From positions 2,840,501 through 2,904,500 of the forward strand of contig JAVTLE010000005.1 in the NCBI GenBank assembly GCA_033439295.1: DNA of 64,000 bases, read 5' to 3'. A program made the translations under genes and the position numbers. The notes below the pieces were generated by a model. The model was not told the DNA's origin, searched no databases, and saw only the letters and a program-made list of their open reading frames with translations. Position 1 is the stretch's first letter; every line of letters begins with the position of its first letter. Below are positions 17,287-25,976 of the stretch, in pieces. The DNA is from Deuterostichococcus epilithicus (Eukaryota > Chlorophyta > Trebouxiophyceae > Prasiolales > Stichococcaceae).

Positions 17287-20200
17287 ATGGTGACCCTGAC
17301 GCCCAAGCCGGAGCAGAAGACAGTGTGGAGCTGCGTCTCTTTGAAGTCGTCCCGCTCCTCTCAGTCGGGATCTTCACAGTCAGGTGAGGTTGCACGGCAT
17401 AGCATGGTACCGCACAATGCAGCACGGCACATGGCAGTTTTTAACGGCATGGCACGGCATGGTGTTGGTCTCGCATTGCAGATGGCCAAACGCAAGCAGC
17501 ATGACCAGGATGCTGCTGCTTGTCGGCTGGCAATGTCCGCCAGCCCCGCCGAGGAGGTGCAGGGCGTGCACTTGGCCCAGAGGTTGGCGTCCTGCACGGG
17601 TTTCACGCTGTGACGCCGTGCCCGCAGGCGATGAGCTGCCGTACTATGTCACGAGATGGAAGTGGTGGTCGTGCTTCTTGTGCCTACTGTTTTGCGGCGC
17701 GTGGGGTTTTTACTTCTATGTGCGGATCAAGTACACCATACCGAGCGTCTATGCATGGTATTCTTGGGTAAGCATCTGACAGCCGGCATGCTGGCATGTA
17801 CGCTCGCCGTCCGTGTGTTTGCTCATGTGCCCCCGTGTCTGAATGCATAGGTACGAGTGTTCAATGTCCCTCAAATATATGTAGCTTGGGCCCATTGCCT
17901 GGCACATGTGACTAAGTGCCTGGCAAGGTCCCTCTATTACAGCCTCTGATTAGCGGTCTGCCTGTGCATCGTCCAGACAATCTTCGGTTTCGAGCTTCTG
18001 GCGTCGTCCAACATGTTCGTCCACATGCTGTATATGCTGCGGATTCGGCACTACACGCAGGGTGAGCTGCCTGATACTCGATCTTGTCGCAGCGCTACTT
18101 GTCGTGCAGATTCCAGCCACATGTAGTGCTGGTGCAGCTTGCGGAGCACTCTCCTTGTGTCCTGCGCTGCGCGCCGATAGACAGCAGCTTTCAGGCACCC
18201 ATAGCCTGTAGCCGTGCCACTTTGCCTATGATTCGAGATTGCTGCCCATGTGCGGCGCGGCCGCAGCAGATCCATCTTCACGCCGTGGGTTTCATTTCCA
18301 GTTTCATGTCTGCAGTGCCGGACGATGAGGGCAATCACCCGCTGATCCACAACTACAGTGTGCACGTGCTGCTACCATGCTACAAGGAGTCGCTGGAGAT
18401 GGTGCAGGCGACAGCGCTGGCGGTGCTGGCAGCAGCACTGCCGACGGGCTGCACGCGCATTGTGTACATCTGCGATGACGGCGAGGACCCATGCAAGCAG
18501 GTGCACGGCCATGACTGTGCAAGCTGCTGCAGACGAGGAAGGCGGCTTGCTGAACTGCCGAGCTGATGTGACAAGGACAACGTTCCAGCTGTGCGGTGAC
18601 CCACTGCGCTGAGACGTCTGACTCAAGTCAGGGGGCATGCCAGAGTCACATGATTAGCACCATGTGACGCAGGCATGGGTCCTGGAGCAGGGGCGGCCGG
18701 ACCTGGTGTACATCACCAACAGGGTGCGCACGCCAGGGGAGATCAATGGCAAGAGCGCCAACCTGAACCACGCTCTATCCAAGATCTACCCGCCGGGCAC
18801 GCCCATCTCCTACAATGAGGTCAGCATCCGGACAATGGCCCGGCACCCCGCCGCAGTTGGCCATGCAGCCAGCTTGTCTGATGGTTCTGCTAGCGTCACT
18901 GAAACGTCGGGGACCAACTGCACCGCCGACCCGGAGTATCCCTCGCCGCTGCACGAGCCTTAGCCCCCTCGAGGCTGCAGGCTGCACGAGCCTTAGCCCC
19001 CTCGAGGCTGCAGCCATCAAGCCTGTGCCCTGTGCAATCAACAGTGGGCTCCGTCAGCAGTGACTGAGAGAGACCGCGGCTGCCGTGTGCAGGTGGTTGC
19101 GGTGTTTGACGCCGACCAGGTGGCGGCGCCCAGCTTCTTCACGCGCACCCTGCCGTGGCTCCAGGTACCTCAGAAGCAGCCTGGAAGAAGCGCCATGCGG
19201 TCCCTTCATTTCTGACATGTTTCGTGGAGAGGAGTTGCTGCTCACCAGCGGAAAAGTGATCCTCACGATGCTTCCGATCCAGGACGGCAAGGAGACCATC
19301 GTCCTGACACCCCAGTACTTCCACAACTACGACCCGGCGGCGGACATCTTCAACCACCGCCAAGCGAATTACTGGAATCTCATCTTGCCGGGTCAGGTGC
19401 GAGCTCAGGAGCTGTAGGCATTGCACCCAGCCCTCGAAAGGCCTTTGAAACAAGCAATGCGATTTGTCATTACCCAGATTATTTTTTCGAAGTTTGCATA
19501 TTTTGTCCGTCCTTCTGTCCAAAAGGACAAAAAATAAGTCGGGGACCGGACGACTCGAGCTTTTCATACATACTGCCGCAGGATGCATGGGGCAAGGCCT
19601 GCTGCACCGGCTCGAATTATGTCATCCGCGCAGCGCACCTCGCTGAGGCTGGGTACTTCCCTACCTACTCGGTGGTGCGCATTTCCCCATTGATCAAGAC
19701 AGAACCTCAGTACTTAAGCCTATGCCTGGCATCTGAGTAAGGCCTGGCATTCGGGCAAGGCAGCAGCAGTAGCAGCAGCAACAACAACATGTGCGTCGCC
19801 ATGCTGTGTCGGGCCGCCAACCCTGCTGGCGTCATGCTGCTCATCTGCAGGCGCCACGTTCTAGGCATAGCAGCAAGAGGTGTTTGGCCAGCCCGCCTCG
19901 GAACTGGCCCCGGAAAGAGCAAATCATCCCCACGCAGGGCGAGGACACCGCACTGGCGCTGGAGCTGCAGTGCCGCGGCCGCACCGGCGTGTACCTGAGA
20001 GAGATGCTCGCAGTGGGCGAGGTGCCTGTCGGCGTGCGCGCCATCTGCAGCCAGAAGTCCCGCTGGTGCAAGGGCGGCATGCAGATGTGAGCACCACAGC
20101 ACGACTTCAAACTATCTCGACTGTGACCGCAGAGGAGTAATGATTGGCGTATATGGGTCTCATGTTGGCAAACAAATCGACGCCAAGACGTAATTTGTTC

Positions 20201-23200
20201 CTGCGTGAGGTTGCCAGATGTCTGCGCTGACGCCAACTCTTCCCTGATGCGCAGATACTTTGACTGGCTGCACTGCCCGCTGATCCGGCCAGAGCTCAAC
20301 ATGTGGGAGCGCATACTGTGGGTGTACGGCATTCTGGTGAGCTGCTTCGGCAAGCTTCGTTGCTATTGCAGGAATGGGGCCGCCGGGGGGGGAGGCCGAG
20401 CTCTTAGCACGCACTTGGAACAACTTGGTCTTTGGCGATTGGACGAATTTTGCTGGCTGCTTGACCCACCTTGCTGATCAACTGCCGCTTCTGCACAGGG
20501 CTACATCACAAACATCCTGTGTACCCCCGTCATGCTGCTGCTCCCGGTGGTTGGCGTGCTGGTGGACGTCATACCAGGTGCACGTTGATGTGCTCTCTTC
20601 TTGGGCCAGCATGCGCTGCAGGGTCCCCAGCAGCGCGGTCTCATCTCGATCTGAGACACACTCAAAGCCCTGGACAGCATCATGAGGCGCCTTGCCCCTT
20701 GCGGCTCCGTGCAGTTGTCAACAGCTTCTGGTTCGCGCTGGCGTTCACGGCTTACATCGGCACGCTCTACGCGGTGATCTACCTGGGCGCCAACAGCTGG
20801 GAGACTGCGGCCGCCACCTGGTTTACCAACAACGCCAACAGCACTCTGTGGTACCAATATGGCAAGGCTGTCTGGCACGTTGTGTGGGGCGGCGTCCGCA
20901 AGAGGTGAGCTTTCTGAGGCATTCATCACATGGTGGCTTAGATCCAGGCCCACTGTGAACCCACTTGCCGGTCACCCTGCAACACAACAGTGGGCCCATG
21001 CTTCTGCAAACATTTGAAGATGAAATCATATGGAATTGAGTGATCCAATGCTCCTCTTGTGCAAACGTAACTTCTCGACGTGCAGGCCCAGCACATTCAA
21101 GGCGACTCCGAAAAGCGCAACAGTGGTTTCTGCTGTTATTCCCTCCGCTGACATGCCTGCTGCGCCCCCACCACCTACGAAGGCCAAGGTGAACACTGCA
21201 TCTTCAGCATGTGAACTGAGACGAAATCCATTTGAATGGCAGAAGGATTGCTGTTCGGATGCGCACCCCAGCAGCAGTGGGGCCTTTTTGGTACATTGGT
21301 ACTGGTACTGACGTCAGCAACAGGCGGCCTGCAAGGAGCTTGGAGGCGGCATCGCTTTGGACCATGTTCAGCTGCCTCCTGCTTCTGCGCAGGCCCGCGC
21401 CAGGGCCAGTGGCAAAGCACAGGGCGCCCTTGGTGACCTGTGGGTTTCGGCGCTGACGTTTCTGGTGCTGGGCGCCACCATCGGCATTGGCGCCTGGCGG
21501 CTGGTGGCTGACGGCATCGTCGGCAGCTCCTGGAACTTCGGGTAAGAAGAGACCCTGTCTTGGGATCTGAGAACCACTGAGCCGTGCACTCCGGCATGCG
21601 GCAGCTGATGCCGCGGCTCATGCGGCCACCGATACCTGTCGCTGCTGCAAAACCGAGCGAGGATAGTGTTTGCACAGATCGTCGCAGAACGTTGGCTGAT
21701 TTCAAGGCAGATGTAGCACTTGCGCAACCAGCATGACCTTGCGAGGCGCTGTCCGTTCTTGCGCGCAGGCTGCTGCTGAGCCTGGCCTGGTGCATCTTCA
21801 ACGTGGTGCCCTCGTACCTGATGCTGCACTATGCGGTACTGGGGGAGGCAGGCCTGCGCTTCGCCTGCCGCGCGTCCAAGCTGCTCATGCTGCTCGCCGG
21901 CGCAGGCGAGCCAGTCTGCATCTGTGCAACTCCTCCTTACACTGTCCTGGCGATGAGCACAGCCTGAGATGTGTGCCTGCTGGAGGCACCGCAGCCCGTG
22001 TCCGCCTTGCAGATGACAGCGTGTCCTCCTACTGGTCTGAGACACAACAATGAACGTCAACTTGTCAACCCTGCTCGGTGTCTGGACTCGCAGCTGTCAT
22101 AGGTTTGCTGTGGTGGCTGCAACCCAAGCACTACTCGTATGACCAGGCACTGGGCGACAGCATCCTGTTCTACGAAGCGCACCGCTCAGGTGTGCCCCCT
22201 TTCGCATGCCTGCCTGCCTGCGGCAGGTTCCTCCATGCACATGCCTCCCCCATACCCGTGCTCGTCGACGGCCAGCGTTGACGAAGAGTACAGTGTCCTC
22301 GAATGGCGTTGGGCGGGTCTGCTCGCCAAATTTTTTTAACACCACATACTTTAAGATCCGGTCCAACTGTACATCAGGCGCGTCAGGAAGTGACCTCAGG
22401 CATGCACAGGTCAGCCGGTTTGATGTCCACATGCGCCCTCATATTATCATATCATAGAGAGGCTCGCATGCTGCCGCACCTCAGGCGTGCTGCCGGCCGA
22501 CAATCGGGTGCCATGGCGCGGCAACAGCGGGCTGACCGATTACCTGACTGGCGGTGCGGAGGGCATTCCGCTGATCGGCGGCTACTACGATGCCGGCACC
22601 AGTTTCGTCAAGCACTCTTACCCCATCGCTACGACCACCGCGCTGCTGTCCTGGGGCCTGCTGTCCTTCCCCCAGGCGAGTGGTTTTGCCGCTGCGTCGC
22701 TGCCTAAATGTGTAATCGCAACTACACCAGGAACGGCAATGCCAGCATGGACACACGCATTGTTCTGCCGGCGCATTGAAACGCTCGACGACCGGCTCCT
22801 GACTGCCACAGATAAATGTGTACAGCAATCGTGTTGAGCAGGGGTACGCACAGTCGAACCGGACCGAGGATGCCAAGGCAGCTATCAAGTGGGGCGCAGA
22901 CTACCTGATGACGGCGCATTTTGAGCGCAACAGCTTCGTCGCCCAGGTCGGCGACCCCACCATCGACGGTGCGCCCTGAGTTCCACACCCATACCACAGC
23001 GCTAGCTTCTGTCACTTGTTTGGGCAGAACCAGAGCAGTTCCGATACCACATCCTGCTGCGCCTTGCTGTCAATAGGGCATCAACGCAGCGCGCACACCG
23101 TGCTCCTTGCTTGAAGCGACATATATGACAGGATGCTTACGGCTATCAGCTGCCGGCTGCACACAGGCAGGTACTGGACGCGGCCAGAGCAGCTGAACGA

Positions 23201-25976
23201 GACACGGCCGGTGTTCATCCTCGACGCCATTCACCCTGGCAGTGACCTGCTGGGTTCGGCGTCTGCGGCGCTGTCCGCCGTGGCAATGGCGCTGCGTGGC
23301 GATAACATCACCTACAGCTTGGCAGCCGCCAACCATGCAGTGCAGTTGTACAGGTGCGTGACGATGGGCCTCCGACACGGGCGTGGCACATCCCAAACAT
23401 GTCAGGGTCTGGTCCATGCCTTTTGCTCGTGGCGAGAGTGAGCACAGAGCTGCTGCGGCGATGCCAGTCCTGTAGCCCCTGCTGCAAAAGCCCAGCCTCC
23501 TCGCTGTGCTGCTGCCAGCTGCAGTGATGGTAAGAATCCAAATCAATGCTGCGCAGGCTGGCGACGAAGCAGCAGGGGCTGTACGCGCAGTGGGTGCGGC
23601 GCGGCGACACCAATTTGGCAGGGCCCTACGCCTCGGGCAGCTACCTGGACGACTTGGCCTGGTGCGTCGGAAATGCATCTGGATTCAAAAGAAGGCTGAT
23701 TATTCTGCTCTCTGAAGTGACGTCACACTGAAAGCAAGCGCCGATCGGAGCCCCTTGGCATGTCCCACAGAGACTGATGGTGTCCTTGAGGTAGGTTGCG
23801 GCTGGTGCGCCTTTAGCTTCAAATAGTCACGCACAGGGTGACTGGAGGTCGCAAGAGTGCTGCGGCGCAGGGCTGCAATCTGGCTGTACCGACTCACGCA
23901 CGATGCGGTGTACCTTCAGGATGCTGCAGTATACTACAAGCACCACCTGGACGTGAGTTGCCTCAAATTCACTGTCTGCACAGCTTGCTCGTGACACCCA
24001 CAGCAACTGGTCTGTCTCCACTATGCACTACAAGCAGCTCAGCTGTGCTGCATCTACCTGGCGTGCGTCTAGATGTTGGCCTGGGCTCCTTCCCTCTACT
24101 GCAGTGGGCGTCACCGGCTAAAGCAAGCGCATGGCTGCGGTAGAGTGTCGAAGCATTGCTGAGTGCCGAAGGTGGGGCTCTCATCCAGGTACTTGACTTT
24201 GCATGCTGTGCAATGTCTTACAGAAGGAGGCATCGGGGCAGGTCTCGTCGTTCGTGTTCGACTGGCAGAATGTGGGCCCTGGAGCCGCCATGCTGCTGGC
24301 ACAGGCCACGAGGTGGAAGATGCCAAACTTCCAGGTGAGGCATACTAGATGTCATCGTGAAGCCGGCCGGACAAAACTCATCACAGCCGATGCTTTGGAC
24401 AGTGCACTGCCGCTGCCGATTTCTGCTGGTGGCACCCCACTTCACTACGATGCATGTATGCGGGACAGCACATCTCCTGCAGGAGTTCCAAATGACAGAA
24501 CTGCAGCGGCGCCGCAATCACACTTCCAGGTGGACGGCGTCCGCCCGGCGTACGCAGCAGATGTGGACCGTTTCCTGGACACATGGCAGGCACGCCGTAG
24601 TGACAGCCCAGTGCGCTACACGCCGCACCTGCTGGCATGGAGCAACACGTCGGTGCGTGCCTTGCCTGCCCGCCTGCCTGCTCAATGCTGTGCCCGAGCG
24701 GAAAGACTTACCATGAGACACGCTGCAGAGTACGTTGGAATTTCTTCCTTCAGAAAGCGTGCACGAGTCTCTGACATGCTGTGCACTTCGTGCTGCCGCA
24801 GGCGCCGCTGCAGGCGGTGGCCAACGCGGCCTTCCTGGCGCAGGTTCACGCGCAAATGCACGTGGGACACTTGAGCGTGCACACCTGCTGGGCAGGTGGG
24901 ATCTCGAGGGCAGCAGATGCAGGTTGCAGCCACGACTGCAGATCACTTCTAGAGACGCCTTTGACTGTCGCTACCTTTTGTGCAACTGCTGCGGATATCA
25001 GTGAGCCACAGCGCCCGCAGCACACTTCGGCTAGCGCAAATGGCAATCCGCCTCACACGCAGATCTGGCCCTCCTGATTCACCAACCTCTCTGTGCCAAT
25101 GTTAACAGAAAGCCAGGCGCGATACATCCTGGGCATGCGCGGCGGCACCAGCTTCGTCGTTGGCGCCGGCAGGCGCAGCCCGCAGCAGCCACGCGATAGG
25201 GCGGCGTCCTGTCCCTCCGATTACCGCACCCCCTGCACCAGAGCCAATGCGCTGCTACCGGATCGCGCCAACCCGCACACCCTCTTCGGTGCCCTGGTGA
25301 ACTGCCTGTGCACGCGGGCTCGTTTGGAAGGTTTACACGGCCGCTATGGAATTGAACGCGCCGGACTGACGTCAGTGGCACGTTTGTGCCCACCAATTCC
25401 CATTGACATGTCTGAACGCTGTAACGAGTCCCATTTGCATGTGCATGCCAGACTGCCGCAGTGACGGGCGTGGCGGGGGGAGGGTGGCCAGCGCCATGTG
25501 TTACGTGCAGCACGAAAGCAGAGCTCTGTTTGCGCTGCATTGCAGGTGAACGGGCCAGACCACAGGGACCAGTACACTGACCGCCGCACCCATGTCAACA
25601 GCGGCGTCTCGCTCACGAATAACGCCGCATTCACAGGTGCGGTGTGGGACATAATGGTGGCGTTGTGATTCAGAGATGGATTACAAAATTGCCTGGACGT
25701 GTGCCCCTGGTACCTGAATGCAAACCAGCATGTTGCAGCCGTCCTGCCCTGTCCCAAAGAACAGGTCGAGATTGTCCAGTTGTGTGCCGCCTGCCTGCTA
25801 GCTGATAAGCCATTATGGCTGCATCGTGGCCTTCCCCGCCCTGACATGACATGGCTCCTTTGCAGGCCTGCTGGCAGCGCTGGCACAGCAGCCGCACAAT
25901 CACTGGCAGCAGTGCACGACGCTGCCAAAGTACTTCTGGCGGGCATCGACCCACTGCCTGATCTAGCCGCGGGCAT
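17287..25976 (+). CDS. Cellulose synthase (GT2) fused to a GH9 domain
   Basis: About 27 exons, roughly 1,100 residues. The first half is a processive GT2 cellulose synthase: TM segments after WKWWSCFLCLLF, the CDDGEDP Asp motif, GKSANLNHAL, the DADQ (DxD) motif, CTGSNYVIRAA, a GED motif (GEDTALALEL) and QKSRW (QxxRW). A set of C-terminal TM helices includes a plant-like STFKATPKS loop. This polymerises UDP-glucose into beta-1,4-glucan at the membrane. The last TM helix reads LLMLLAGAAVIGLLWWLQP through a GC-AG intron (about 21906-22110) straight into a GH9 domain (YDQALGDSILFYEAHRSG, VPWRGNSGLTDYL, GGYYDAGT, WQNVGPGAAML, ARYILGMRGGTSFVVG, DQYTDRRTHVN, GLLAALAQQPHNHW), ending at TAG 25974. No PilZ domain is seen. 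The start at 17287 is the first in-frame ATG after a stop. Confidence 0.8.
18948..19013 (+). repeat. 33-bp perfect tandem duplication in intron
   Basis: Two adjacent 33-bp copies (each beginning GCTGCACGAGCCTTAG) lie in an intron of the GT2-GH9 gene. The identity of the copies suggests a recent event. Confidence 0.85.

Follow-up and report, generated by a model that had tools for sequence, protein, structure and literature searches.

In the stretch of Deuterostichococcus epilithicus DNA analyzed here (the window: 64,000 nucleotides, positions 2,840,501 to 2,904,500 of the forward strand of contig JAVTLE010000005.1), one gene is predicted to encode a cellulose synthase of family GT2 that continues in frame into a full-length GH9 domain, the fold of a cellulase family, and in this domain, as in those at five other loci of the genome, the residues required for catalysis appear to be missing. 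We favor, with a probability of about 0.5, a reading in which the fused domain would serve as a non-cutting guide for the glucan chain at the pore exit. The fusion of CesA to GH9 is itself already known: an initial annotation of the window stated that none had been described in a green alga, but Blanc et al. reported four in 2012 (PMC3446292). The apparent catalytic loss is the part that we did not find described, and searches of the open-licence PMC literature yielded nothing on whether fused GH9 domains of algae are catalytically competent. The part worth following, which the initial annotation missed, is thus a family of cellulose synthases with a cellulase fold seemingly unable to cut.

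The gene occupies 17287–25966 on the forward strand of the window and was built by hand from the raw sequence as a model of 27 exons, encoding 1,114 amino acids with no internal stop. The exons lie at 17287–17383, 17628–17767, 17977–18061, 18316–18500, 18673–18819, 19093–19164, 19283–19396, 19582–19671, 19938–20086, 20255–20336, 20499–20577, 20715–20904, 21086–21188, 21393–21541, 21769–21905, 22094–22189, 22485–22675, 22812–22968, 23167–23353, 23557–23661, 23871–23952, 24224–24334, 24530–24652, 24802–24895, 25109–25296, 25546–25636, and 25866–25966. The donor of exon 8 is ambiguous, with an alternative end one codon later. A spliced aligner reproduced the model, the query given being the same window protein. 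The start agrees with that of the initial annotation, whereas the end placed there at 25976 does not, because the stop codon finishes ten bases sooner, at 25966. All 26 introns have an AG acceptor; two have a GC donor, namely intron 15 (21906–22093, donor gcgagc), at the junction between synthase and GH9, and intron 17 (22676–22811), and the remainder have GT.

When the genome was searched with the GH9 family, 23 exon matches were obtained, which fall into eight loci; a termite enzyme used as query yielded 20 matches, again at these eight, and each count is a minimum. GT2 is followed by GH9 on one strand at six of these loci (the window copy and the copies designated C10, C12, C11, C1a, and C1b), and the same order at five further loci indicates that the join is more than chance. 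The paralogue models were obtained from the spliced aligner, in which short exons are uncertain, chiefly at the ends, and only motifs in long exons were relied on. In the four paralogues scanned by Pfam (C10, C11, C12, and C1b), GT2 and GH9 were both present, and the GH9 match covered the full profile. C1a and C1b adjoin on one strand (contig C1:1618001–1646000), with identities of 67% between their GT2 halves and 62% between their GH9 halves. The other two GH9 loci (C5:2651058–2652091 and C14:2475209–2475939) are standalone, with no GT2 in the upstream stretch examined.

The initial annotation had listed a set of GT2 motifs followed by GH9 on the same strand, and these motifs could be located, in the order DDG (in 18468–18488), DADQ (19105–19122), GED (19938–19955), and QKSRW (20052–20066), together spanning 18468–20066. 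Pfam analysis of the spliced protein agrees, matching PF13641 at residues 123–355 (18360–20072; E 2.2e-14), PF13632 at residues 220–420 (19096–20734; E 1.7e-13), and the GH9 family PF00759 at residues 622–1084 (22138–25873; profile 1–444 of 444; E 4.2e-100). The D, DxD, (T/G)ED, and QxxRW motifs are present in the window copy and the five paralogues, the first reading DDGAN in C1a. The sequence FKATPK at 21096–21113 resembles the gating-loop motif of cellulose synthases, and FKxTxK is kept in all six fused copies. The nearest solved structures by sequence are bacterial BcsA (5EJ1 and 4HG6) for the GT2 half and animal endoglucanases (1KS8 and 3WC3) for the GH9 half. Unlike in bacterial BcsA, no PilZ domain was among the Pfam matches of the window protein (up to E 0.001), and the bacterial BcsZ is a separate protein. 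The plant-type family PF03552 was found neither in the window protein by Pfam nor in the genome by a six-frame, exon-by-exon search.

At the junction, the window protein reads LLMLLAGA|AVIGLLWWLQPKHYSYDQALGD across intron 15, which divides the last membrane helix of the synthase (21881–22125); the GH9 start is read from this helix, in contrast to KORRIGAN, a separate GH9 protein with its own membrane anchor. On the sequence, the in-frame join of GT2 and GH9 in one predicted protein is confirmed for the window copy. The initial annotation had proposed this reading across the intron, which is now strengthened by the five paralogues, and had also noted that no in-frame ATG precedes the GH9 part, which holds, as the open frame 22054–22281 contains no Met ahead of the GH9 start. 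Alternatively, the synthase and GH9 could be made separately, for example if intron 15 were retained and the message ended at the in-frame stop that the read-through of exon 15 meets at 21967, and the GC donor of this intron together with that stop would suit such an outcome. However, the corresponding intron of C11 lies at the same residue and likewise has a GC donor (gcgcgt), and the other four paralogues have no intron between the helix and the GH9 start: the residues running from the last helix into GH9 fall within a single exon for 45 of 45 in C12, 2–45 of 45 in C10, 2–41 of 42 in C1a, and 2–41 of 45 in C1b. Together with the lack of a Met before the GH9 start, this makes separate products highly improbable. 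TGTAA, an algal poly(A) signal, does not occur in intron 15, but neither does it occur in the first kilobase downstream of the stop codon, so its absence from the intron is uninformative.

In GH9 enzymes (T. fusca numbering), the catalytic base is the Asp at the fourth letter of DAGD, and the acid is a Glu near the C-terminus. In the window copy, the base site reads YYDAGTSF (22583–22606) where active GH9 has DAGD, and the acid site reads NSGVSL (25597–25614), with Gly replacing the catalytic Glu; each site is readable inside a single exon. In the order window, C11, C10, C12, C1a, and C1b, the base position is occupied by T, D, E, Q, A, and A and the acid position by G, R, M, R, R, and R, so the Asp is replaced in five of six fused copies and the Glu in all six. 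Bacterial GH9 controls kept both residues in 80/80 cases, these being a non-random sample, the best 80 of 524 confirmed matches in a genome scan with a GH9 alignment; one of the two search patterns of that scan includes the first Asp of DAGD, but neither contains the base Asp or the acid Glu. At the two standalone loci, EAGG replaces DAGD and the Glu is kept at the acid position (the splicing of one acid exon is unsettled), and both catalytic residues together occur at none of the eight GH9 loci of this genome, fused or standalone. Within the cleft, the window copy keeps a Trp (GRYWTRPE, split by an intron, 22968–23189) and a Tyr (GPYASGS, 23621–23641), both of which are kept in all six fused copies; at 25186–25206, it has QPRDRAA where active GH9 has PHHR, the His being lost and the Arg kept.

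The fused GH9 domains therefore seem, from these replacements, to be catalytically dead. The initial annotation was right about the fusion, which is in frame and recurs to make six loci, but the built-in cellulase that it implied is unsupported for the window copy, since both catalytic residues, Asp and Glu, are replaced there. An active endoglucanase trimming the new chain, as is thought for plant KORRIGAN1, would be consistent with a full-length GH9 domain, with C11, which has both Asp residues (DFGD), with C12, which has a Glu two residues off the acid position, and with the description of the Coccomyxa domains by Blanc et al. as cellulase domains (PMC3446292). Nevertheless, the acid Glu is found in 0/6 and the base Asp in 1/6 fused copies, against 80/80 in the bacterial controls, and the window copy is without both, so a built-in trimming cellulase is very improbable.

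Selection on the two halves was estimated as the ratio of nonsynonymous to synonymous substitution rates (dN/dS) by Nei-Gojobori counting with bootstrap intervals for the pairs C1a/C1b and window/C11. For C1a/C1b, the ratio was 0.44 (0.35–0.55) in the GH9 half and 0.41 in the GT2 half; for window/C11, it was 0.63 (0.50–0.79) and 0.48, respectively. When poorly aligned stretches were removed, the GH9 and GT2 values were 0.36 and 0.34 for C1a/C1b and 0.57 and 0.43 for window/C11. By these counts, both pairs show purifying selection on the GH9 half, more loosely in window/C11. A decaying, functionless GH9 domain that is simply carried by the synthase would account for the lost active-site residues and for the higher GH9 ratio of window/C11 (0.57 to 0.63, depending on the filter). 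However, the modeled exons of the six copies contain no stop, the full GH9 profile is matched in the window copy and the four paralogues scanned by Pfam, and the bootstrap intervals lie below 1; such decay is improbable.

In the reading that we favor, one gene would give one membrane protein, composed of a BcsA-like processive GT2 synthase and a C-terminal GH9 fold. The protein would have about seven membrane helices, two before the GT domain and five after it, the latter matching five hydropathy peaks in the window copy, C12, and C1b as we read the peak list. A cytosolic GT domain followed by five helices would place the GH9 fold outside the cell, probably where the glucan leaves its channel, a topology consistent with the arrangement of seven helices in plant CESA. 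Without its hydrolytic machinery, the tethered fold may guide the beta-1,4-glucan chain, holding or ordering it as it emerges without cutting it. In favor of this reading are the join at six loci, the kept GT2 motifs and FKxTxK, the replaced catalytic residues, the cleft Trp and Tyr kept in all six copies, the constraint on the GH9 half of C1a/C1b, the five hydropathy peaks, and the lost Asp of the tunicate CesA-GH6 protein. The gene structure, the in-frame join at six loci, the GT2 motifs, and the loss of catalytic residues are sequence-based, whereas the topology, the product, the glucan binding, and the role are what we infer.

The main competing explanation is that the GH9 fold is structural only, joining synthase subunits or aiding folding or transport with no contact to glucan. 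The loss of catalytic and several cleft residues would be in keeping with this, and constraint on the GH9 half is expected here too; in contrast, the cleft Trp and Tyr kept in 6/6 copies speak against it, and we regard a purely structural role as rather unlikely. Several observations weigh against a non-cutting guide. The His of HxxW and the Phe adjoining the Tyr are kept in none of the six copies, the Arg in three, and the second Trp in five, and this loss of other cleft residues makes glucan binding less certain. The dN/dS of window/C11 is higher in the GH9 half than in the GT2 half, the junction intron of the window copy is of the GC-AG type, and the hydropathy profile of the window protein at the chosen threshold gives one helix, not two, before the GT domain. 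In addition, two Arabidopsis GH5 mannanases are described as needing their catalytic residues for glucomannan synthesis (PMC13181414), which argues against treating cutting as generally dispensable in hydrolases linked to synthesis.

The closest known counterparts are in Coccomyxa subellipsoidea C-169, for which four of nine GH9 proteins were reported to be fused to a CesA-like domain, a domain whose other algal occurrences were given as Chlorella variabilis and Emiliania huxleyi (PMC3446292). The present proteins resemble them in carrying GH9 on a CesA-like domain within one protein, in several copies, in a green alga. They differ in that 6/8 GH9 loci are fused here, and in that the cellulase family PF00150 had no match in this genome in a six-frame, exon-by-exon search, whereas 22 cellulase-family proteins were reported for C-169. 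The G+C content of C-169 is 53%, lower than that of the window (59–64%). Plant KORRIGAN1 likewise belongs to family GH9, is anchored in the membrane, has its domain outside the cell, and meets cellulose synthases; its membrane helix is described as needed for contact with the plant CESAs (PMC4226561). Unlike KORRIGAN1, a separate protein thought to be a cellulase, the window GH9 is covalently linked to the synthase, and its catalysis seems lost.

The tunicate CesA-GH6 protein offers a second comparison, as it also joins a GT2 (PF13641) synthase to a C-terminal glycosidase fold without a catalytic Asp. Its catalytic Asp is reported as lost, and the GH6 domain is described as possibly lacking cellulase activity or seemingly functionless (PMC7464555, PMC10334666); Blanc et al. 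ascribed cellulase activity to it (PMC3446292), contrary to both tunicate papers. The hydrolase family is GH9 here and GH6 in tunicates, which are animals, and Pfam gave GH9 instead of GH6 as the C-terminal domain of the window protein. In addition to the fused domain, tunicates possess a stand-alone GH6-1, in which the Asp is mostly retained, whereas the searches of the present genome found no GH9 domain with the two catalytic residues in place. By analogy, the loss of the tunicate Asp and the algal GH9 loss suggest convergence. We tentatively consider it possible that one-protein cellulose synthases of eukaryotes acquired a cellulase fold at least two times (GH9 in a green alga, GH6 in tunicates), that cutting was switched off, and that the fold would now guide the chain at the exit pore. 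If true, what counts in a cellulase associated with cellulose synthesis would be its hold on the chain and not its cut, and with the tunicate case this would be a second independent example, in another hydrolase family. It has long been asked why a cellulase is needed for making cellulose. A synthase with its own cellulase fold, in a six-protein family minus the cutting residues, would separate binding from cutting in one polypeptide and make this question testable.

No prokaryotic GT2-GH9 fusion was present among the best 80 bacterial GH9 loci, some with incomplete flanks; one of the 80 had a GT2 relative near GH9, on the opposite strand. A search for GT2 across bacterial and archaeal genomes gave 59 matching stretches, with no relative among them. 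Viral scans gave four distant GT2 loci (23–27% identity), with no GH9 beside them by tblastn, and no GH9 relatives. In the GH9 tree of the fused and standalone copies, rooted at the midpoint for drawing, three groups meet at one point: C10, C12, C1a, and C1b; the window copy and C11; and the termite and earthworm enzymes with the two standalone copies. The GT2 tree places an unfused gene at C5:683526–683678 among the fused ones, at an unresolved position. With neither tree resolved, a single fusion event is not established.

This unfused GT2 gene is of the same type, and its coding region ends near WWIQ at a donor-like site, GCAAGT. No GH9 was found within about 14 kb downstream, and a GH9 start suggested behind it by a profile lead was rejected, as the match proved to be tiny exons chained by chance. 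Another GT2 gene, which is more distant, lies at C6:42292–42480, where GH9 was not detected. The same genome carries a PsaF gene, whose PDB matches are photosystem I subunit F chains; this fits the assignment to an alga in the initial annotation. Within intron 5 of the fusion gene, a 33-nucleotide unit is present in two exact tandem copies (18948–19013), and the G+C content of the window is 59–64% across eight 8-kb blocks.

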